DNA of 64,000 bases, from the NCBI RefSeq assembly GCF_900116705.1, contig NZ_FPBP01000001.1:186001-250000 (forward strand), given 5' to 3'. Shown here in pieces: positions 898 through 37,350 of this stretch; position 1 is the stretch's first letter; each line of letters opens with the position of its first letter. The position numbers were made by a program, and so were the translations under genes. This DNA is from Halomonas korlensis (GTDB lineage: Bacteria > Pseudomonadota > Gammaproteobacteria > Pseudomonadales > Halomonadaceae). Below the pieces are notes generated by a model, which made no database searches, was not told the DNA's origin, and was given only the letters and a program-made list of their open reading frames with translations.

Positions 898-1566
898 TCA
901 CGCCTGGCGAGGCGTGACGCCACATCCCTTGAGAATTACTTGGGTCAGAAAGCCGGTAATGGCCTCCACATCGCTGTCCGTCAGCGCGTCCTTGTCGGTG
1001 ATACCGAGTACCTGGGCCTCGAAATCGGCGTAGTGCTGGGTAGCCGACCAGATCAGGAAGATCAGCCAGACCGGATCAACCGGGTCCATCAGCCCACGCG
1101 CGCTCCATTGCTCGAAAATCCGCGCCCGCGCCTTCACCCAATCGCGCAGTTCGCCGCGTAGATAGTCCTGGAGAAAGGGCGCGCCGCCGAGGATCTCGGC
1201 GGCGAAAAGCCGCGAGCCTTCTGGATGGCGACGAGACAGCTGCATCTTGCTGCGGATGAAACTTTCCAGGACTTCCGCCGGGTCGTCATCCACCGAGATA
1301 TCATCGAGTAAGGCATTCCAGCGCGCCATCATGCGCTCCAGCAGGCGGACGTAGAGGCCACGCTTGCTGCCCATGTAATACAGGACGTTCGATTTGGGCA
1401 GACCCGCTTCATGGGCGATGGCCTGCAGGCTGGCGCCACGAAAGCCGTGCTGGGCGAAGATCCGTTCGGCGGCGGCGAGGATAGCTCGCTCGTTGCGCTC
1501 GCGGATCGCCCCGTTGGCTTCGCCTTTTTCTTCGCCCGTATCTTGGGGCACCTTGCATAGCGTCAT
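898..1566 (-). CDS. TetR-family regulator, RutR-like (probable purine catabolism regulator)
   Basis: 222-residue TetR/AcrR regulator. An N-terminal helix-turn-helix lies at about residues 45-66 (SLQAIAHEAGLPKSNVLYY), followed by a YcdC/RutR-type ligand domain. ATG 1566 is preceded by GAGG nine bases upstream, so I prefer it to a longer frame reaching 1686. It is divergent from xdhABC across a 264-base gap that contains TGACC-GAAT-GGTCA. Known of the family: E. coli RutR binds TTGACCA-N2-TGGTCA and responds to uracil or thymine. Inferred: here the ligand is more likely a purine or a purine breakdown product, because every nearby target is a purine gene. It could instead be a pyrimidine sensor with a wider regulon. 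Confidence 0.88.
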   Translation of the reverse strand: MTLCKVPQDTGEEKGEANGAIRERNERAILAAAERIFAQHGFRGASLQAIAHEAGLPKSNVLYYMGSKRGLYVRLLERMMARWNALLDDISVDDDPAEVLESFIRSKMQLSRRHPEGSRLFAAEILGGAPFLQDYLRGELRDWVKARARIFEQWSARGLMDPVDPVWLIFLIWSATQHYADFEAQVLGITDKDALTDSDVEAITGFLTQVILKGCGVTPRQA

Positions 1567-1699
1567 CGACTGCCTCACTACCCTGACGGGGCGCTGCGAT
1601 GGCCCGGGAAGGACAAGTGACGGCGATAGTGCCCCACCCTGCCACCGTGTGCAAACGACCTTGCAACGCCCGCTTTTTTGAACCAAGCTTGAGATATCC

Positions 1700-1713
1700 T
1701 GACCGAATGGTCA
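1700..1713. promoter_or_regulatory. RutR-like operator between tetR and xdhA
   Basis: The sequence TGACCGAATGGTCA is a perfect 5-base inverted repeat with a 4-base spacer, followed by a further half site TTGACCA at 1719-1725. It sits between the divergent regulator (start 1566) and xdhA (start 1831), so it could serve autoregulation and xdh control. Its form matches the known RutR consensus. Confidence 0.7.
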
Positions 1714-1830
1714 GTAACTTGACCAGGCCAGGCCTGCGGATATTGATGCTGAGCGCCCAACCGAGGGCCAAGCTGTTAGCGCGGCGCCTGATGACATCTT
1801 CACAGGCACCTACCCACGAGAGACCCGGGC

Positions 1831-3297
1831 ATGATTGATTTCCTATTCAACGGACGGCCACGCCATTGCGAGGCAGCCCCCGAAACCAGCGTACTTGAAC
1901 TGCTGCGTGAAACCCTCGGCACCACGGGTACCAAGGAGGGGTGCGCGTCCGGCGACTGCGGTGCCTGCACTGTTGCCATCGGCGAAACAGGGCCCGACGG
2001 GGAGCTGCGCTACCATAGCGCCAATGCCTGCATCACCCCGGCCCATCAACTGAATGGACGCCACTTGATCACCGTGGATGGCCTCGCTGACGGCAGCGGC
2101 CTCCATCCCGCCCAGGCCGCCATGGTCGCCTGCCATGGCAGCCAGTGCGGCTTCTGCACCCCGGGCATCGTCATGTCGCTGTTCACCCTTCATGAGGAGC
2201 GGCGCCGGCAGGCCGACAGGGCCTTGGCACCGCTGACGCCGCAACGTCTCGAGGCCGCCTTGGGCGGGAATCTTTGCCGCTGTACCGGCTACCGCCCGAT
2301 CCGCGACGCCGCGCTGACCATGAACGAGCACCCGGAGCATCGCCCGCTGTGGATGGACGCCGCCGCTCCTGAGCCGAAAGCCCAGCACGCCGCTGATGAA
2401 AGTTCCTTTGCCCAGCCCACCACGCTCGCCGAATTGATCGAGTGCCTGGCGCGCCACCCCGAGGCGCGGCTCGTTGCCGGGGCCACCGACCTGTGGCTGG
2501 AGAGCACCCAGCGCCTGGTGCGCTTCGAGCGGCTGATCGATGTCACTCGCGTCGCCGAATTGAACGTCATCGAGGAAACCACCCTCGAAGATGGCCGCGA
2601 GGGCTGGTGGATCGGCGCTGCGGTGACCTATGCCCGTATCGAGCCGCTGCTCGAAGAGCATTTTGACGCCTTCGCCCACCTGCTGCATCGGCTGGGCTCT
2701 TCCCAGATTCGCAACCGGGGCACCCTGGGCGGCAACGTGGCCAATGCTTCGCCGATCGGCGACACCCCACCGGTACTGCTAGCGCTGGGGTCGCGCCTGC
2801 GTCTGGTCGGCCCCAAGGGTGAGCGCGAATTGCCGCTGGAAGAGTTCTTTCTCGACTACAAGCGTACCGCCCTGCAGCGGGGCGAAGCGATCCGCGCCGT
2901 GTTCCTGCCCCGCCCCGTCAGGGGGGAAACGCTCAAGGTATGGAAGCTGTCCAAACGGCGAGAGGATGACATTTCCGCGGTGCTCGGGGCCTTCGCCTGG
3001 CGCCTGGAGGATGGCGTCCTGTACGACGTACGCCTGGCCTTTGGCGGCATGGCGGCAATTCCCAAGCGCGCCGCTCGTGCCGAGGCGGCGCTGGAGGGCC
3101 AGGCCCCCGATGCGGCAGCCTTCCTTGCTGCACGCGAAGCCTTGGCCGAGGACTTCCAGCCCATGTCCGACGTGCGCGGCAGCGCCGAATACCGCAGGCT
3201 CTCCGCCGCCAACCTGCTAGAGCGCCTGCGCCTCGTGATCGCTCAAGCCGAGTCCGATAGCCCCCGGGAGGTGATGCTCCATGCGTACGCTCACTAA
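1831..3297 (+). CDS. xdhA: Xanthine dehydrogenase small subunit (2Fe-2S and FAD)
   Basis: 488 residues. Electron-transfer subunit of the molybdenum enzyme that oxidises hypoxanthine to xanthine and xanthine to urate. The N-terminal plant-type 2Fe-2S domain has C38, C43, C46 and C67; the second cluster has CGFC (106-109) and CRC (149-151). A FAD-binding domain follows at about residues 190-360, then a C-terminal FAD-domain tail. The length is usual for split bacterial XdhA. The gene overlaps xdhB by 17 bases, indicating translational coupling. It is first in a probable xdhABC-guaD operon behind the RutR-like operator at 1700-1713. Confidence 0.97.
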   Translation: MIDFLFNGRPRHCEAAPETSVLELLRETLGTTGTKEGCASGDCGACTVAIGETGPDGELRYHSANACITPAHQLNGRHLITVDGLADGSGLHPAQAAMVACHGSQCGFCTPGIVMSLFTLHEERRRQADRALAPLTPQRLEAALGGNLCRCTGYRPIRDAALTMNEHPEHRPLWMDAAAPEPKAQHAADESSFAQPTTLAELIECLARHPEARLVAGATDLWLESTQRLVRFERLIDVTRVAELNVIEETTLEDGREGWWIGAAVTYARIEPLLEEHFDAFAHLLHRLGSSQIRNRGTLGGNVANASPIGDTPPVLLALGSRLRLVGPKGERELPLEEFFLDYKRTALQRGEAIRAVFLPRPVRGETLKVWKLSKRREDDISAVLGAFAWRLEDGVLYDVRLAFGGMAAIPKRAARAEAALEGQAPDAAAFLAAREALAEDFQPMSDVRGSAEYRRLSAANLLERLRLVIAQAESDSPREVMLHAYAH

Positions 3298-29202: not shown

Positions 29203-30627
29203 TTAGAGATCGCGCATCAGTAACGCGAACTCGATACGCTCGGGAGCGATTTTTTCACCGGGCACGAGAATGCGCACCACATGACCTGAGCCCGGTGCGG
29301 CCGCAACGGATTCACCACGCCGATTCTCGATATGCTCGAGGGTAAAGCGACGGTTGCCGCCGGGGAGCATCAACTCCATCGAGTCACTCACCTCGAAGCG
29401 GTTCTTGACTTCGACTTCCAGTACGTTGCGGTCGGGGTCGTAGCCAATGACCTCACCGACGAACTGCTGGTGGACACCCACCGAGTTACCCTGTTCGTAA
29501 TTCTGGTACTGATCATGGACATGACGACGATAGAAGCCTTCCGTGTAGCCACGGTTGGCCAGGTTATCGAGCTCGTCCATCAGGCGCATGTCGAAGGGCC
29601 GGCCGGCCACGGCATCGTCGATGGCTCGCCGGTAGACCTGGGCGGTGCGGGCCACGTAGTAATGCGACTTGGTACGCCCCTCGATCTTAAGTGAGGTAAC
29701 GCCCATTTCGGCCAGTTGTGGCACGTGCTGGACGGCGCGAAGGTCCTTGGAATTCATGATGTAGGTGCCGTGTTCATCCTCGTGCACCGGCATCAGCTCG
29801 CCCGGACGAGTCCGGTCCTCGATCAGCGCCGAGAGCTCATCCTGCCCTTCGACGCCCCCGGCCGTCGCGGTGCTTGCCTCGGCGGCACTACCGCCGCCGG
29901 AGGCGATCAAGCCGCCCTGCTGCCCACCGTCCTGGGGCGTCCAGATGCCGCTGGCGGCATGGGCGCGGGCCGAGTTGGCCGGCACCAGATCGCCGGTTTC
30001 GTCCTCCGCGGCCGCCACGGTGTTGTACTTCCAGCGACAGGCATTGGTGCAGGTGCCCTGGTTGGGGTCGCGATGATTGAAGTAGCCGGACAACAGGCAA
30101 CGCCCCGAGTAGGCGATGCACAGCGCGCCATGCACGAAGGTTTCGATTTCCAGGTCAGGGCATTCGGCACGGATCTCGCCGATCTCGGCAAGCGACAACT
30201 CACGCGACAGGATGATACGACTGATGCCCTGCTGCTGCCAGAACCGCGCCGCTGCCCAGTTGACCACGTTGGACTGGACCGAGAGATGGATCACCTGCTC
30301 GGGCCAGCGCTCACGGACCATCATGATCAGCCCCGGATCGGACATGATCAGCGCGTCGGGTCCGGCCTCGATTACCGGCTTCATATCCTTCAAATACGTC
30401 TTGAGCTTGCTGTTGTGCGGCGCGATGTTAGAGGCCACATAGAACTGCTTGCCCCGCTCATGGGCGTAGGCGATCCCCTTGTGCAGGTTGTCGATCTTGA
30501 AGTCATTGTTGCGCACGCGCAGCGAATAGCGCGGCTGACCGGCATAGACCGCATCGGCGCCATAGGCGAACGCATAGCGCATGTTCTTGAAGGTGCCGGC
30601 GGGCGACAGCAGTTCGGGGGCTTTCAT
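29203..30627 (-). CDS. trhP: Peptidase U32-like tRNA hydroxylation protein TrhP (YegQ)
   Basis: 474 residues. In E. coli TrhP forms 5-hydroxyuridine at the wobble position of tRNAs, using prephenate. The N-terminal TIM-barrel-like U32 domain starts at once (MKAPELLSPAGTF), and a cysteine group lies at C170, C177, C193 and C197 (SGRC, GTCTNAC). Residues about 207-275 are a low-complexity Gly/Ala/Ser-rich stretch replacing a shorter linker of the family. The C-terminal U32 domain ends at RDL. No protease activity is expected. Confidence 0.93.
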   Translation of the reverse strand: MKAPELLSPAGTFKNMRYAFAYGADAVYAGQPRYSLRVRNNDFKIDNLHKGIAYAHERGKQFYVASNIAPHNSKLKTYLKDMKPVIEAGPDALIMSDPGLIMMVRERWPEQVIHLSVQSNVVNWAAARFWQQQGISRIILSRELSLAEIGEIRAECPDLEIETFVHGALCIAYSGRCLLSGYFNHRDPNQGTCTNACRWKYNTVAAAEDETGDLVPANSARAHAASGIWTPQDGGQQGGLIASGGGSAAEASTATAGGVEGQDELSALIEDRTRPGELMPVHEDEHGTYIMNSKDLRAVQHVPQLAEMGVTSLKIEGRTKSHYYVARTAQVYRRAIDDAVAGRPFDMRLMDELDNLANRGYTEGFYRRHVHDQYQNYEQGNSVGVHQQFVGEVIGYDPDRNVLEVEVKNRFEVSDSMELMLPGGNRRFTLEHIENRRGESVAAAPGSGHVVRILVPGEKIAPERIEFALLMRDL

Positions 30628-30871: not shown

Positions 30872-31648
30872 ATGACCATTCCCGCTTTCCCGCCAGGCAA
30901 GGCTACCGATACCACCGTCGTGATCTACTCCGGCGGCATGGATTCCTACACGGTATTGCATCGCGCCCTACGCGAGGGCCTAACGGTACATGCCCTCTCC
31001 TTCGATTACGGCCAGCGCCACCGCCGCGAACTGACGGTGGCGACCCGCGTATGTCGCGCGCTTGGGGTGCCACACCAAGTGGTCGATATCCGCGCCATTC
31101 ATGGCCTGATCGACAACTCGGCGCTCACCGATGCCGATCGCGAGATGCCCGAGGGCGACTATAGCGAAGCCAACCTTACTGCCACCGTGGTGCCCAACCG
31201 CAACATGATCCTGCTCTCGCTGGCCATCGCCAAGGCGGCCAATATCGGCGCCGGGCGGGTCGATTATGGCGCCCATGGTGGCGATCATGTGCTTTACCCG
31301 GACTGCCGGCCCGAGTTCGTCGAGGCGATGAACGCTGCCGCCGGCATCGCCAACTTCGACCCCGTTCAGTTACATGCACCCTATCTTCGGTCGACCAAGG
31401 CGGAAATACTCGCCGACGGCCTTGCCATGGGACTGGACTACGCCGACACCTGGACCTGTTATCAAGGCGGTGAATTGGCCTGTGGCCGTTGCGGCAGCTG
31501 CCGTGAGCGGCTCGCAGCGTTTGCCGCCAATGGCGTCGAAGACCCATTAAGCTATCTACAGCAGCCCTGTTTACAGCGGCCCTGTTTACAGCGGCCCAGT
31601 GACGCCGCCAGGTCACAGCGGCCCGATCCCGACGCGGGAGTCGCGTGA
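30872..31648 (+). CDS. queC: 7-cyano-7-deazaguanine synthase QueC
   Basis: 258 residues. Converts 7-carboxy-7-deazaguanine to preQ0 with ATP and ammonia, in queuosine synthesis. PP-loop SGGMDS at 20-25; zinc cysteines C196, C204, C207 and C210. The family usually ends near residue 222-230; here about 30 extra residues carry three copies of a Gln-Pro-Cys-Leu type repeat encoded by 15-base repeats at 31558-31597. Start ATG 30872 is in a 244-base gap after divergent trhP. The stop overlaps queE by one base. Confidence 0.96.
31558..31624 (+). repeat. 15-base tandem repeat in the 3' end of queC
   Basis: Unit ACAGCGGCCCTGTTT occurs at 31558-31572 (one mismatch) and 31573-31587, with the ACAGCGGCCC core again at 31588-31597 and 31615-31624. 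In frame it encodes repeated LQRPC-like pentapeptides. Confidence 0.75.
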
Positions 31649-32292
31649 TGTACCAGGTCAAGGAGGCGTTCTATACCTTGCAGGGCGAAGGAGGCCAGAC
31701 TGGTCGCCCAAGCGTGTTCTGCCGTTTCTCGGGCTGCAATCTCTGGTCGGGACGCGAACGTGACCGCGCCACGGCGGCCTGTCGTTTCTGCGATACCGAT
31801 TTCGTCGGCACCGATGGCCAGAACGGCGGACGCTTCACAGACGCCGAGGCGCTGGCCGGGCACCTCGCCGCGCTCTGGCCCGATGTGGGTGGGCGCTCCA
31901 GGCCCTACGTGGTGTTTACCGGTGGCGAGCCACTCCTGCAACTCGACGCGCCATTGATCGATGCCCTGCACGCAAGGCACTTCGAGGTCGCCGTGGAGAC
32001 TAATGGCACCTTGCCGGCACCGGCGGGGGTCGACTGGCTGTGCGTCAGTCCCAAGGGGGAAAACTCGTTGATAGTCACCGAGGGTGACGAGCTCAAGCTG
32101 GTCTATCCTCAACCCGACGCGCCGCCCGAGCGCTTTGCCGACTTGGGCTTTCGTCTGTTTTTCCTGCAACCCATGGACCGCACGCCCCTGGGCCAGGCCA
32201 CCACCACCGTGGACGACACCCTGGCCTACTGTCTGGACAATCCGCAGTGGCGCCTCTCGTTGCAGACTCACAAGATCATGGGGATCGACTGA
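31648..32292 (+). CDS. queE: 7-carboxy-7-deazaguanine synthase QueE
   Basis: 214 residues. Radical SAM enzyme that makes 7-carboxy-7-deazaguanine from 6-carboxytetrahydropterin. The iron-sulfur cysteines are C30, C45 and C48, the C-x14-C-x2-C form found in part of the QueE family rather than the usual C-x3-C-x2-C. VVFTGGEPLLQLD is the GGE motif. ATG 31648 shares its A with the queC stop, and its own stop shares a base with the next ATG. Confidence 0.95.
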   Translation: MYQVKEAFYTLQGEGGQTGRPSVFCRFSGCNLWSGRERDRATAACRFCDTDFVGTDGQNGGRFTDAEALAGHLAALWPDVGGRSRPYVVFTGGEPLLQLDAPLIDALHARHFEVAVETNGTLPAPAGVDWLCVSPKGENSLIVTEGDELKLVYPQPDAPPERFADLGFRLFFLQPMDRTPLGQATTTVDDTLAYCLDNPQWRLSLQTHKIMGID

Positions 32293-33137
32293 TGACGCTC
32301 TTCGTCAACCGCCTGACGCAGCTCGACGTATCACTATGGTGCCCGCGTCGTGGCCTGGTCGGCGCCAGCTGGCATGTGGATGTGGAACTCGACGGCGAGC
32401 TCGGTGAGGACGGCATGCTCTTCGACTTCGGCGAGGTCAAGCCGTGGATCAAGATGCGGCTGGATGCCGGCGCGGACCACACCCTGCTGGTGCCCACGCG
32501 CGCGGCCGGAGTGGAAGTGCATGACTGTCGCGAAGGCCTCTGCGTGCGCGCCTCCCTGCCCTACGCATTCGAGGTTCGCGCGCCTCGTCAGGCGCTGACG
32601 CTGCTGCCCTGGCAGGAAATCACCACCGAGCGCCTGGCTGATCATATGGCGGCAGAATTGGTGCGACGCCCTCCGCCGAGGGTCAGCGACATCCGCCTTC
32701 ACTTGCGTGAGGAAGCCATCGAGGGGCCGGCCTACACCTACAGCCACGGCCTGAAACGCCACGCCGGCAACTGCCAGCGCATCGCCCACGGCCATCGCTC
32801 GCGATTGCATATCTGGCAGCAAGGCCAACGCGCCCCGGCTCTCGAGCAACAGTGGAGTGACTGGCTGACCGACCGCTACCTGGTTGACCGGCAGGATATC
32901 GTCGATTGCGGAGAATCAGGGCATCGGGGCCAGGTCGCAAGCCGCTACCTGTCACCGCAGGGCAGCTTTTTCCTGAGCCTGCCTCGTGAGCGCTGCGCGG
33001 TGCTGCCGACACCGACGACCGTTGAGCAGATCGCCGCCTGGCTGGCCGAAACGATCACTCTGGAAACAGGCACTGCCACCCGTGTCCAGGCCTTCGAGGG
33101 TATCGACAAGGGGGCCATCGCGGCGGCAAGACCATGA
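32292..33137 (+). CDS. QueD-like tandem T-fold protein (probable 6-carboxytetrahydropterin synthase)
   Basis: 281 residues, more than twice the roughly 120 of normal QueD. Two QueD-like units are visible. Unit 1 (about 1-125) keeps DFGEVK (45-50), D62-H63 and E113, but the zinc histidines are replaced (LDVSLWCPRRGLVGASW). Unit 2 (about 130-260) keeps H152, C161 and the HGH pair H166/H168, then PTTVEQIA with E245, but lacks the DFG and DH motifs. Together they hold one full set. The operon position after queE supports a role in preQ0 synthesis. ATG 32292 overlaps the queE stop by one base. It could be the QueD of this organism or a diverged paralogue. Confidence 0.8.
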   Translation: MTLFVNRLTQLDVSLWCPRRGLVGASWHVDVELDGELGEDGMLFDFGEVKPWIKMRLDAGADHTLLVPTRAAGVEVHDCREGLCVRASLPYAFEVRAPRQALTLLPWQEITTERLADHMAAELVRRPPPRVSDIRLHLREEAIEGPAYTYSHGLKRHAGNCQRIAHGHRSRLHIWQQGQRAPALEQQWSDWLTDRYLVDRQDIVDCGESGHRGQVASRYLSPQGSFFLSLPRERCAVLPTPTTVEQIAAWLAETITLETGTATRVQAFEGIDKGAIAAARP

Positions 33138-33406
33138 GACAAGAAACCGACACCGACGACGGTTGCCGTCCCGGCTGCGGCGCCTGCTGCATCGCGCCTT
33201 CGATCAGCTCAGCGATTCCCGGCATGCCCTACGGCAAACCGGCCGGGGAGCGCTGCGTGCAATTGGACGACGCCAATCTTTGCCGGCTCTTCGATGATCT
33301 ACGCCGGCCAGCGGTATGCGCAGCGTTTCGCTTCGATCGCAACCTCTGCGGTGACCACCGACATCAGGCCCTGGAAAGAATCGCCGCCATGGAACTGGCC
33401 ACCTGA
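33134..33406 (+). CDS. YkgJ-family cysteine cluster protein
   Basis: 90 residues with eight cysteines (11, 15, 18, 19, 41, 50, 62, 72), starting with CRPGCGACC, the signature of the zinc/iron-chelating YkgJ family. Function unknown; metal binding is expected. Overlaps the QueD-like gene by four bases, so it is translated as part of the que operon. The association could be a metal-supply role or simple clustering. Confidence 0.88.
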   Translation: MRQETDTDDGCRPGCGACCIAPSISSAIPGMPYGKPAGERCVQLDDANLCRLFDDLRRPAVCAAFRFDRNLCGDHRHQALERIAAMELAT

Positions 33407-33441: not shown

Positions 33442-36400
33442 TCATGACGAGACGCTCGCCGCCTGAGGAAGTCGCTTGTCCAGCAGCGTCCGCCAGCGCA
33501 CCAGTACCGGTGCATCGCTATGACTCACCTCGCCAAGCAAACGCCGGAATCGCTCGCGCGCAGCGTGGTCTTCTGGGTCGATATGGGTCAACCATAGCTC
33601 AAGGGCACTCAGCTGCTGGTGCAGGTTACCGTCCTCATGGGCCTGGGTCAGCGCCTGTTCGACCAGCGCCTTGACCTCTTTCCTGTCGTGACCAAGGCTC
33701 AGGCGGACGCGGGCCAGGTGCACGGCCAGTTCCGGCACAAACAGGGTGGTACGCTCCCGGGCAATCAGCAGCGTCTGATCGAGATAATCCTCTGCCTTGG
33801 CCATTTCACCGAGTGCCATACAGGCATCCACATACCAGAGCGCGGGGCGCTGGTAACGATCGCGCCCAGTGACCTCGGCAAATTCTTCCAGAGAGCTATC
33901 GATCTGAACCAGGCCGTCTCGGTCACCGGCCAGCGCCCGCTTCCATCCGAGCACACCGCGAGCGGCATTCTGCCACAGGTGCAGATCCGGGGTTCCGGTC
34001 AATTCGAAGGCGCGCTCCGCCCGCGCGGTCGCTAGATGGACGTGTCCCAGCTGTCGATAGAGCGCTGCCGCATACATCAGGGCCATGGCCAGGCTGCCCG
34101 GATGCTTGATCTGCTCGGCGAGACGAATCGCCGACTCCACCTGAAGTTCGGCCCGGTGATAGTCGCCCCGCAGGCACAGCGCCCAGCCCTGGAAACAGGC
34201 CGCGGCGATCTGCGGATGATCCGAGAACGGCAGCCACTCGATCATCATCGGCGAATTGAGAGGATCGATCTCTTCCAGATGATCGTAGGCCTGGCCGATA
34301 CGTCCCGCCCAGTACTCACAGCTGGCCCGGGCATAATCCGCCAGGCGCCGGTAGCGAGGATCCTCGAGACGGCCTGCCTGGTCGGCGAGTCGTGAGGCCA
34401 GCGAAAAGGCGTCGGCATGGGCATGACGCTGGCTACAACCGACCCACAGCCCCCAGTTGACGAGAAAGGCCTGTTCCAGATCGGCGGCTTCGTCACCGCT
34501 ATCGGCCAGCAGCTCCCGGGCACGCGCAAAGCTTTCGTGGGCCGTAGGCGAGCCATGCCCCTCCAGGGTAAAGGCAGCCTGTCCGCGTACGGTGAGCAGG
34601 CTGATCTCGCGTTCCGGCTGATGCGCCACGTGGCGAAGGCTGGCCAGGCCAAAGTCGGCCATTCTCAACGCGGTACGATTAGCGCTCACCTTCAAGGCCT
34701 CTCGAGCGGCCAGCTCGAAATAGCGGGCACCACGAGCATAGTGGCCACTGCGCCTGAGATGGGTCGCGAACTCGCCGGGATGGCGGCTGATCCACACCGG
34801 GAAGCGCTCCTCGATCAGCGTCACGACCTGGCGATGAATCCGCACCCGAACATCACGCGGACACGACAGATAAGCGGCCTCCTGCAACAGCTGATGGGTA
34901 AACTGATACTCGCGCCGACCTTCTTCGCTGTCGGCGTTCTCGATGATCTCCAGACGCAGCATCTGCTCAAGCGCCTGCGTCAGTCGGGACATCTCCCAGC
35001 CACTGCATTCCGTTAGGAAATCAAGGCGAAAGCGACGGCCCAGCACCGCTGCGACATGGGCCACTTCGCGATCGCCATCGAGTTGATCGATACGACTGGC
35101 AAGCAACCCCAGCAGTCCGCGTGGCAGCTCGTCGAGCTGGACCGTGCGACCCTCGCGTCGATCCATGTCGACCCGGCGGCAAAGCTCCTGCAGGTACAGC
35201 GGGACGCCATCACAGCGCTCGATGATCTGCCCCCGCAACCGTGGACTGAGGTGAAGCCGATAACGGCGCGCCAGCTGGGAAAGCAATCGTGACGACTGCA
35301 TCGCGTCCAGCCGGCCGAGGGTGATCTGCTGGTCCCAGTGGAGTCGAGTCGGTAATGTCTCGCGACCATGATGGCTGGCCACCAGCAGGAAAGGGCAGTT
35401 GATCGGCAAGCGTGCCTGAAGGCCCGCCAGCACCTTGAAGGACGGCTCGTCGAGCCACTGCAGGTCATCGATCATCACCACCAGCGGCCGCTCCTGGGTC
35501 AGCAGGATAATGAGGCGATGCAGCACGCCTACCACCAGCTCGACGGCCTCTCCACTTTGCGTGAGCACGGCGACTTCTCGCGGTTCGCGTGCTCCTAACG
35601 CCTCCTCGATCAGTTCGCGGCGAGAAGCGTCGAGCTCCAGGAATCCGACCGAGGAGAGCAGGACATCCAACGCATCGACGTCAATCTCGCTCCCAACGTG
35701 CCATCTGAGTAATTGGCGCGCCATGCCATAGGGTTCCTGTACCGAAAGGCGTGTCGTTGGCTGCCAGCAGACAGCGGCCTCATGGCACTGTTCGAGCTGG
35801 CGAAACCCGACCATCAGCGCCGACTTGCCCATACCGGAAGGCCCGCGCACCAGTACACTCTGTCTCAGGCCGATACCGGCCCGAGCCAGGGCATCCCGCA
35901 AGGTACGCAGTGCTGCCTCGCGGCCGATCAGGCTTGGCGGCACCGCTTCGCGCCCGCCTTCATTGGCGCCCAGCACCAAGGCACGCAGGCGAACCCGGCC
36001 ATCGCTTGCGACCAGGCGCGACGACAGGCGGGGCTGTAGGTCCAGGGCCGGCGGCATGTGCTGGCTGGCTTCCTGGGAAATCACCAGCTCACTGCCTTCG
36101 GCGGCTACCATCAACTCGAGCGATCCCTGGGTGACCTGTCCCAGCGGGTCGACCATCTGGCGCTCGGGAAGATATACCACCCTGCCGCTGTTGAGCCCCG
36201 CTGCCAGTTCAATACGCGGCGGCTCACCCTCGCCGCTCCAGTGGCGAGCGGTTTCTTCGGGAAGCATACGCCGGCAGTGCTCGTAGAGGGCAACGAGCTC
36301 GGCCAGCTGGTGAGCAGGGCCGTGGGTACCGAAGCATGCAAGCCCCAGACCACCGGTAGCACCGGGCAGCCAGAACCCGCCCAGATGATGGCACTGCTGC

Positions 36401-37350
36401 TCGAGCCATCGCAGCAGTTCGAACTCCAGCATCAGGCAGGCACGAGTTCCGGCGCGTGACGATAGATCGCCGGTCAAGCGCAGACGAATCGCCATCACCG
36501 AGAGCTGGCGCTGCTCGATCTCTTCCTCGCGCAGGGGCGAGCTATCCGGTGCCAGCGTTCGGGAAAAATGACTCTGATGGCTTAACACCGCACTCTCTGC
36601 CTGGCTATCGGACCAGTAGCGAGCAAGATGCATGAACGCCGGCTCGGGCTGCTGGCCGGAGAGCGCCAGTAGCTGCAGGTAAGCATTGTACTGTTCGTGC
36701 GCGGCAGCGAGTTGGCCTTGTTCGGCGAGCTGGCGCACCAGACGCTCGTGAAAGGGGCCGTACCCGGGGAAACGACTCACCAACGAATGCAGTAAATGGT
36801 CGGGGACCGACTCGTGTTGCTCGATCACCGATTCGGCGAAGCGGATCACCCGCTGCCGCCATTCGTTACGCATCTGGACGAGCCAGCGCTGGAACTCTGC
36901 ACAGGCCGGCAGCTGCAATTCCTCGACCAGGTCTCCCCGATATGAGCTCAGCAAGGCTTGCAGAGTGGTGACGTCGGGCGATGCCTCGAGCAGCGTCTTA
37001 ACCTCATGAAGATCGAAACACCAGCTCTCCGGGCGGCGGAAGGCAATGGTCTGGCGAGACACGACCAGCACCCGCTCGGCTTCTTCTCCGAGCGACTGGC
37101 GCAGGCAGTGAAGCGCATGCCGCAAGTTGGTGCGACCTGATGACAGCCCCTGGTCCGGCCACAGCAGTTCTGCCAGTGTTGCCCGATTGACCGGTTGGCT
37201 ATGCAGTAACAGGTAGACCAGCAGGGCCTTGACCTTGTCATAGCTGAACTGCGTCAGCGCATCTTCACCCAAGGTGAGCGAGAAGTGGCCGAACAGGGCC
37301 AACTGGTCTTGTTGCGAATTGTCGGTGACGTCGGAGGAGTCCCGCATCAT
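33442..37350 (-). CDS. Large SARP/BTAD regulator with degenerate cyclase domain, ATPase and TPR-like repeats
   Basis: 1302 residues. Winged-helix SARP-type DNA-binding domain (about 15-115), BTAD domain (about 115-250), a class III nucleotide-cyclase-like domain (about 280-440) in which the metal Asp and GDG motif are missing (GATGG at 330-334), then a STAND-type ATPase with Walker A GPSGMGKS (503-510) and Walker B LVVMIDDLQWLD (623-634). The rest is helical TPR-like repeats to the C-terminus. It resembles AfsR/LuxR-LAL regulators; ligand and targets unknown. AGGA lies eight bases before ATG 37350. It follows miaE by 30 bases on the same strand, so the two may share a transcript. Confidence 0.88.
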   Translation of the reverse strand: MMRDSSDVTDNSQQDQLALFGHFSLTLGEDALTQFSYDKVKALLVYLLLHSQPVNRATLAELLWPDQGLSSGRTNLRHALHCLRQSLGEEAERVLVVSRQTIAFRRPESWCFDLHEVKTLLEASPDVTTLQALLSSYRGDLVEELQLPACAEFQRWLVQMRNEWRQRVIRFAESVIEQHESVPDHLLHSLVSRFPGYGPFHERLVRQLAEQGQLAAAHEQYNAYLQLLALSGQQPEPAFMHLARYWSDSQAESAVLSHQSHFSRTLAPDSSPLREEEIEQRQLSVMAIRLRLTGDLSSRAGTRACLMLEFELLRWLEQQCHHLGGFWLPGATGGLGLACFGTHGPAHQLAELVALYEHCRRMLPEETARHWSGEGEPPRIELAAGLNSGRVVYLPERQMVDPLGQVTQGSLELMVAAEGSELVISQEASQHMPPALDLQPRLSSRLVASDGRVRLRALVLGANEGGREAVPPSLIGREAALRTLRDALARAGIGLRQSVLVRGPSGMGKSALMVGFRQLEQCHEAAVCWQPTTRLSVQEPYGMARQLLRWHVGSEIDVDALDVLLSSVGFLELDASRRELIEEALGAREPREVAVLTQSGEAVELVVGVLHRLIILLTQERPLVVMIDDLQWLDEPSFKVLAGLQARLPINCPFLLVASHHGRETLPTRLHWDQQITLGRLDAMQSSRLLSQLARRYRLHLSPRLRGQIIERCDGVPLYLQELCRRVDMDRREGRTVQLDELPRGLLGLLASRIDQLDGDREVAHVAAVLGRRFRLDFLTECSGWEMSRLTQALEQMLRLEIIENADSEEGRREYQFTHQLLQEAAYLSCPRDVRVRIHRQVVTLIEERFPVWISRHPGEFATHLRRSGHYARGARYFELAAREALKVSANRTALRMADFGLASLRHVAHQPEREISLLTVRGQAAFTLEGHGSPTAHESFARARELLADSGDEAADLEQAFLVNWGLWVGCSQRHAHADAFSLASRLADQAGRLEDPRYRRLADYARASCEYWAGRIGQAYDHLEEIDPLNSPMMIEWLPFSDHPQIAAACFQGWALCLRGDYHRAELQVESAIRLAEQIKHPGSLAMALMYAAALYRQLGHVHLATARAERAFELTGTPDLHLWQNAARGVLGWKRALAGDRDGLVQIDSSLEEFAEVTGRDRYQRPALWYVDACMALGEMAKAEDYLDQTLLIARERTTLFVPELAVHLARVRLSLGHDRKEVKALVEQALTQAHEDGNLHQQLSALELWLTHIDPEDHAARERFRRLLGEVSHSDAPVLVRWRTLLDKRLPQAASVSS

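Follow-up and report, generated by a model that had tools for sequence, protein, structure and literature searches.

The que operon and its two-unit gene

We analysed a 64,000-nucleotide stretch of Halomonas korlensis DNA (NCBI RefSeq contig NZ_FPBP01000001.1, positions 186,001 to 250,000; the whole stretch is called the window, and coordinates are those of the window unless a locus is named), in which an open reading frame (ORF) at 32292..33137 (+), starting with ATG, encodes a 281-residue protein with two PTPS/QueD-like units. We refer to this gene as bimodular QueD. It is the third gene of an apparent operon on the plus strand, which consists of queC (7-cyano-7-deazaguanine synthase, 30872..31648), queE (7-carboxy-7-deazaguanine synthase, 31645..32292), bimodular QueD and, last, a gene for a small CxxCxxCC protein (33134..33406); queC and queE overlap by 4 bases, queE and bimodular QueD by 1 base, and bimodular QueD and the CxxCxxCC gene by 4 bases. 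Profile matches support the names of the neighbours: 202.1 bits to TIGR00364 (cut-off 150.3) and 211.9 bits to PF06508 for queC, 345.7 bits to TIGR04508 (cut-off 240) for queE, and 30.2 bits to PF03692 (cut-off 23) for the CxxCxxCC protein. QueD (PTPS-I) is 6-carboxytetrahydropterin synthase, a hexamer of two trimers that turns the FolE product, dihydroneopterin triphosphate, into the material for QueE.

A preliminary description of this DNA, made from the sequence alone, had reported a 281-residue two-unit protein in the que operon, and this is borne out: the ORF is real, and the Pfam PTPS profile (PF01242) matches the protein in two stretches (61.8 bits, cut-off 22.4). A sequencing or frame artefact was ruled out by the recovery of the open frame in all 80 loci of Halomonas and kin that were taken from 163 relatives at a best-segment identity of 62-91% (the copy in L032 is shorter by 15 residues). 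Upstream on the same strand, queC is present in 80/80 of these loci and queE in 79 (77 by script and two, L072 and L075, on rechecking), and the CxxCxxCC gene follows within 600 bases in 75 by script, two of the five misses (again L072 and L075) being script artefacts. Membership in QueF was rejected: Pfam gives PTPS only and no PF14489, and the QueF match of the genome sits on another contig.

Two further genes border the operon on the opposite strand. A U32-peptidase-like protein (29203-30627, -), a candidate TrhP/YegQ (tRNA wobble uridine hydroxylation), adjoins the que genes, and a 1302-residue ORF (33442-37350, -), regulator-like by eye, lies just downstream.

Catalytic residues of the two units

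Conservation was read from a main alignment of 129 rows, comprising the 80 loci of Halomonas and kin, 12 from the window's own family (including the window gene itself, L083) and 37 from elsewhere in the order. These rows represent 126 distinct proteins (L033/L085 and L068/L069/L086 are identical sets), and those other than the window protein are 34-91% identical to it. A second set of 68 rows (the window protein and 67 loci) was aligned separately, and a reference list of 85 rows was kept under 88% identity, from which L152 was dropped as it contains X. Losses from either unit were read in 12 bimodular representatives aligned with the 29 single-unit loci that could be parsed among 30 fetched.

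Unit 1 (residues 1-142, 32292..32717; this and all features below lie on the plus strand) is, by model and conservation, a T-fold that has the Asp-His pair and lacks the zinc site. D45, F46 and K50 of its DFxxxK motif (D45-F46-G-E-V-K50, 32424..32441) and the catalytic pair D62-H63 (32475..32480) are invariant in 129/129 rows, and the zinc histidines and the cysteine are absent in 12/12 representatives. Unit 2 (residues 144-281, 32721..33134) is a T-fold with the zinc site, the cysteine and the pterin pocket. Its 129/129 residues are H152, H157, C161, Q162, R163, H166, G167, H168, R169, S170, T243, E245, E269, G270, K273 and G274; they include a predicted zinc ligand (H152, 32745..32747), the catalytic Cys with two zinc histidines (C161-Q-R-I-A-H166-G-H168, CxxxxHGH, 32772..32795), the equivalent of the pterin-binding TSE motif (T243-V-E245, 33018..33026) and the equivalent of the Glu in the ETCTSG motif of QueD (E269-G-I-D-K273-G274, 33096..33113). 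The conserved Asp-His pair is missing from unit 2 in 12/12 representatives. The separately aligned 68 rows returned the same invariants in both units.

The division of residues described from the single sequence, with DFGEVK and D62-H63 in a unit 1 that has lost its zinc histidines, and H152, C161, H166 and H168 in a unit 2 without an Asp-His pair, is thus borne out, for the residues kept in the whole alignment and for those lost in the 12 representatives. The two glutamates named in that description, E113 and E245, are at the positions given. The role of catalytic Glu assigned to them does not stand, since in alignment with canonical QueD both fall on the TSE motif; position 113 holds Glu in only 76/129 rows, compared with all rows for position 245. 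The equivalents of the Glu in ETCTSG, which follows strand 3, are E141 in unit 1 (32712..32714; 128/129 rows) and E269 in unit 2.

Beyond the main alignment, the catalytic set, D62-H63 and CxxxxHGH included, is kept in all 31 other rows of a wider alignment, 22 of which (17 class-level loci, 3 plasmids and 2 phages) are not among the 129. Of the 22 columns tabulated, only 141, 157, 163, 169 and 244 vary. Column 141 is not Glu in the two phage rows, in L177 or in L180, and two phage copies that are only about 25% identical to the window protein still keep the catalytic set. As read from these alignments, the partition is strict and old.

Compared with the features that define QueD, all three predicted zinc ligands (H152, H166 and H168) lie in unit 2, the Asp-His pair lies in unit 1 only, and E269 and T243/E245 supply the Glu after strand 3 and the TSE motif. 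The catalytic Cys is present throughout, with the spacing CxxxxHGH, one residue longer than the QueD signature CxxxHGH and one shorter than the PTPS-II signature CxxxxxHGH (signatures as given in the available part of PMC5041015). The residues are not gathered in a single-unit chain: they are spread over two units with complementary losses.

Each predicted unit has the T-fold. The AlphaFold2 model, built with the 68 rows, reached a predicted local distance difference test score of 94.9 and a predicted template modelling score of 0.91. Unit 1 of the model (1-142) matched Plasmodium vivax PTPS (3lze) with Z 10.2 over 139 aligned residues (root-mean-square deviation, rmsd, 2.9), and residues 144-279 and 144-280 matched Escherichia coli QueD (4ntk_C; Z 6.7, 99 aligned, rmsd 3.1) and QueD2 (7v0f_B; Z 6.7, 111 aligned, rmsd 3.5), respectively; the middling Z of unit 2 is backed by the second Pfam PTPS stretch. 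Well-scoring structure matches (Foldseek, VIA) span one unit each; 2r5r covers 1-281 at rmsd 13.2 and is unusable. In the model, strand 131-140 of unit 1 is separated from the zinc region of unit 2 by a single strand (residues 147-152, 32730..32747, assigned by DSSP), which joins the units and seems to serve both as the last strand of unit 1 and as the first of unit 2. Such a common strand would keep the canonical three-unit ring from closing.

Coevolution was analysed by a mean-field method on 232 rows (effective number 135 at 80% identity and 57 at 62%) and was unstable between subsets outside and inside Halomonas and kin. Of two expected strand pairs, 176-263 ranked 21 outside and 6 inside, and 10-26 ranked 2 and 7979. 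The inter-unit pairs 20-194, 13-149 and 25-156 ranked 446, 232 and 9204 outside and 2, 7850 and 176 inside, respectively. In three data sets that overlap, the segment 59-66, which contains D62-H63, ranked 15, 9 and 5 of 135. At most, coevolution lends weak support to a composite site.

Occurrence in genomes, plasmids and phages

The source genome (99.99% complete) contains queC, queE, queF and tgt, and only two PTPS loci: the bimodular gene and a second locus, L001 (92.5 bits). The search for a normal queD elsewhere in the genome, which the preliminary description had called for, found no canonical QueD. L001 reads HGA for HGH, has no Cys and has NF where DH belongs, and because it thus lacks the third zinc His, the Cys and the Asp-His pair it cannot be standard QueD. 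The bimodular protein is the only QueD candidate of the source genome. The alternative offered earlier, that the true QueD lies at another locus and this protein is a paralogue without catalytic activity (or, as we would add, a regulator), could appeal to the existence of L001. We regard it as very improbable, given what L001 lacks, the place of L001 beside glycosyltransferase-like and alcohol-dehydrogenase-like ORFs, and a catalytic set in the bimodular protein that stays invariant down to about 25% identity, which is unexpected for a dead protein. A dead paralogue beside a normal queD was accordingly rejected. The L001 gene itself runs from 1492 to 1911 (-) of its locus, between the two ORFs just named, whose labels were given by eye.

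At the level of the order, 293 genomes were classified by a bimodular match of at least 144 bits and a single-unit PTPS match of at least 119 bits, the latter class being called canonical by score, with motifs read in 29 of the 30 loci fetched. Bimodular QueD was found in 133 genomes, a high-scoring single-unit protein in 104, both in 5 and neither in 61. The two forms thus nearly exclude each other (odds ratio 0.024, Fisher p 1e-28, uncorrected for shared ancestry), and because the genomes are related the p value describes a pattern and is not a probability. Among the 133, the copy of G116 is cut by a contig end; a copy in G013 (L303), likewise cut, was left uncounted. A strong QueC match accompanies the bimodular gene in 130/133 genomes. 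These include six that yield nothing in the PF01242 search despite having the bimodular gene and a strong match to QueC.

One genus contains both states. Two of its genomes, with single-unit QueD (134 bits each), keep only decayed bimodular pieces, and a third (G152) has an intact bimodular gene (L154) and, besides it, only a partial PTPS match of 82 bits. Decayed bimodular copies with internal parts missing lie at 2428-2848 of L162 and 372-755 of L300. Further afield, 21/369 genomes at the class level match the bimodular gene at E <=1e-20, and 37/349 at the phylum level match at E <=1e-15, every listed match falling within the window's own class, presumably Gammaproteobacteria. At G609:C1:1281958-1282823, a bimodular gene matches in two pieces with one stop and is perhaps broken or split in two.

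Mobile elements also carry the gene. In a plasmid collection, bimodular matches occur in 601 of 72,556 records, 562 of them from Klebsiella, and in a phage collection in 50 of 50,697 records, 48 of which are named Vibrio phages. In phage nt-1 the gene lies near those for GTP cyclohydrolase I (FolE) and QueC, and the 247 kb genome has its two PF01242 matches within this one gene. Hutinet et al. (2019) measured dPreQ0, dADG and dG+ in the DNA of nt-1, for which they also list a homologue of QueD, with no mention of two units in the part of the paper available to us (PMC6884629). Because the host could supply preQ0, the nt-1 preQ0 cluster is support and not proof that the bimodular protein acts as QueD. 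The nt-1 protein (L182, 5992-6924) is matched end to end by PHROG 14221 (662 bits), a family listed as of unknown function, to which unit 2 of the window protein also has a match at 2.4e-12.

These contexts bear on the branch of the PTPS family to which the protein belongs. An enzyme from a different PTPS branch (folate rescue, 6-pyruvoyl or sepiapterin chemistry), as opposed to QueD in the strict sense, would agree with the intermediate CxxxxHGH spacing and with Plasmodium PTPS as the best solved relatives of unit 1. This assignment appears improbable, as queC lies upstream in all 80 close loci, the phage gene sits in a preQ0 cluster and the bimodular form nearly excludes single-unit QueD; nor does unit 2, which reads CQRIAHGH, have the Glu of the PTPS-III type ExxHGH.

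On one Klebsiella and one Pantoea plasmid (L184 and L185) the bimodular gene stands among zinc-starvation-type genes: its annotated neighbours, pooled over the two plasmids, are a transcriptional repressor, a GTP-binding protein/ZigA, dksA, folE2, carbonate dehydratase, thrS, dihydroorotase, hemB and cysS, and in L184 folE2 is two genes upstream. An Amphritea plasmid does not carry the bimodular gene among such genes. The available part of Haas et al. (2009) places paralogues of QueD in predicted Zur regulons and lists a Zur cluster carried by pLVPK (PMC2770081). Both observations would suit a zinc-starvation back-up of the QueD2 type, in which metal use was selected and the split site is a by-product. 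We think this unlikely, since the gene sits in the que operon in Halomonas and kin, is the sole QueD candidate of the source genome and keeps all three zinc histidines. The Klebsiella plasmid copy (L184, 8001-8867; WP_260680192.1) carries the label isocitrate dehydrogenase; by sequence it is a bimodular QueD with the full catalytic set.

A probable composite active site and its relation to known systems

Both units carry an insertion, PR....LLP..TxE, that is also found, by eye, in Plasmodium PTPS and in single-unit ExxHGH proteins and is absent from canonical QueD; for this reason sequence comparison favours duplication as the origin of the two units. Profile comparison, in which 1 of 250 rows had no unit boundary match, gave E values of 1.3e-7 for unit 1 with canonical QueD, 2.4e-4 for unit 2 with canonical QueD and 1.6e-4 for unit 1 with unit 2. 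Single-unit PTPS proteins of about 160 residues at L285-L293, L298 and L299 have the bimodular-type insertion; their HGH is preceded by Glu and their Asp-His pair is replaced by Asp-Glu, and several of the genomes concerned also have a canonical-scoring QueD.

A second fused form was found in four genomes of one other genus, in which three QueD units share one open frame (L305-L308; on the minus strand in L306-L308). Unit a has lost the first zinc His, the Cys, the His of the Asp-His pair and the Glu. In unit b all zinc histidines, the Cys, the TSE motif and the Glu remain, and the Asp of the Asp-His pair is lost in three of the four; unit c keeps the Asp-His pair and has lost the first His, the Cys, the TSE motif and the Glu in all four. 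The canonical-type units of this chain, which lack the insertion, suggest that it arose separately from the bimodular form. As the same two residue sets part company in both, the triple chain is the best evidence that the zinc/Cys/Glu set and the Asp-His set would lie on opposite sides of a single interface.

The title of Burgisser 1995 ascribes an 'intersubunit catalytic triad' to the canonical enzyme (citation in the available part of PMC7546909), and the loss of one half from each unit is therefore what a composite site would need. The composite site by complementary loss that was proposed from the single sequence gains support from the strict partition, the absence of any canonical QueD from the searches of the source genome, the near-exclusion, the phage cluster and the triple fusion. 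We consider it highly probable that the window protein is the working QueD of its genome, in bimodular form. As the Cys and the Asp-His pair of canonical PTPS/QueD are contributed by different subunits, unit 1 would give the Asp-His half and unit 2 the zinc/Cys/Glu half of one site per chain. In the mechanism that we infer, an insertion-bearing PTPS would have been duplicated and fused, after which unit 2 would have retained the zinc ligands H152, H166 and H168, Cys161, the pterin-binding TxE motif and Glu269, and unit 1 the D62-H63 pair. Unit 2 would bind zinc and the pterin substrate through H152, H166, H168, T243/E245 and E269, with a Glu anchoring the pterin; Cys161 would be the thiol for acid-base catalysis, and the triad of an active enzyme would be completed when D62-H63 of a unit 1, in the same or in another chain, meets it.

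Whether that unit 1 belongs to the same chain is the point at which an alternative compatible with this enzymology comes in. The protein could be an active QueD with its site between two chains, each unit 2 taking the Asp-His pair from the unit 1 of a partner, either in a four-unit ring or in some other dimer, and we give this arrangement slightly less than an even chance. In the triple chain the acceptor is unit b and the intact Asp-His pair is in the next unit, c (4/4); donor follows acceptor, and therefore, by the same direction, unit 2 would receive its Asp-His pair from unit 1 of the following chain. The coevolving pairs 7-272 and 139-271, ranked 11 and 33 outside Halomonas and kin, would be consistent with the end of unit 2 touching unit 1; inside that group, however, they rank only 70 and 1913. 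The other consideration against it is bimodular QueF, in which the donor motif is in the N-domain, the Cys and Glu are in the C-domain and the site lies inside one monomer (available part of PMC5372742).

Several observations weigh against the assignment of the window protein as a working bimodular QueD. Its score against the NCBIfam QueD equivalog TIGR03367 is 53.1 bits, below the cut-off of 89.25, and it was for this reason filed as a QueD variant, a bimodular QueD parallel to bimodular QueF, and not as standard QueD. Because E141 in unit 1 is also nearly invariant, the partition is not wholly clean-cut, and either E141 or E269 may anchor the pterin. One of the 80 close loci (L007) has no queE, queC ending there just before the bimodular gene, and single-sequence queries with the window queC and queE (E 1e-8) found no match in the fetched stretch of 21/21 loci outside Halomonas and kin. 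Five genomes of the order hold both forms and 61 hold neither, and three of the bimodular genomes (G002, G075 and G239) have no strong QueC match; these three have Tgt and QueF, and the first large ORF found upstream of the G075 bimodular gene is folE2. The possible supply of preQ0 by the host of nt-1 counts here as well, and in the zinc-type clusters of the Klebsiella and Pantoea plasmids the gene may be a back-up. Finally, of the 304 residue pairs of the segment 59-66, 6, 6 and 3 reach the top 1% in the three coevolution data sets, against 3.04 expected, which is no clear excess.

Taking the double and triple forms together, we lean towards the view that PTPS rings turned at least twice into fused asymmetric chains, each with one live site whose zinc/Cys/Glu and Asp-His halves are in different units. 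The common strand of the double form would block a three-unit ring, so that another assembly (two-chain, four-unit or open, as in bimodular QueF) would carry the site. A working bimodular QueD would fill an apparent gap in queuosine synthesis in the 128 of 293 order genomes that have this form and no high-scoring single-unit QueD, and it would suggest a function for the phage family PHROG 14221. Its product would be an early precursor for the modification of tRNA (or of phage DNA) in many marine or salt-loving bacteria, some plasmids and some phages. Annotation would gain, the window protein falling under the QueD cut-off and the Klebsiella plasmid copy being mislabelled. Two steps of one pathway, QueD here and QueF in published work, would have taken the same route, which the triple fusion repeats, and these proteins offer natural test cases for the passage from symmetric oligomeric enzymes to asymmetric fused ones. 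Literature searches, including one aimed at a two-unit QueD, recognised no published example, key 7-deazaguanine papers lying outside their coverage.

Among known systems, QueD/PTPS-I of E. coli (PDB 4ntk) shares with the bimodular form the Pfam family, the pathway context and every catalytic residue type at least once per chain; the bimodular form differs in its two units per chain, its split residues, CxxxxHGH in place of CxxxHGH and a sub-cut-off NCBIfam score. QueD2 of Acinetobacter baumannii (PDB 7v0f) belongs to the same QueD family, and its chains (169-182 residues modelled) are one unit in size. The Zur-regulated QueD paralogues resemble the two plasmid copies in their zinc-type clusters, and the available part of PMC2770081 mentions neither two units nor a split. 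PHROG 14221, a phage-only library family, matches both the nt-1 protein and unit 2 of the window protein. Plasmodium PTPS (PDB 1y13, 2a0s and 3lze) is the best fold and profile match of unit 1, insertion included, but it is a single unit in which Glu (E37) replaces the Cys (from the titles of 3m0n and 3lze). Bimodular QueF of Vibrio cholerae and E. coli is likewise built of tandem T-folds with catalytic elements spread over two domains and the donor in the N-domain (available part of PMC5372742), although it is a different enzyme with different chemistry, acting at a later step of the same pathway with its site inside one monomer.

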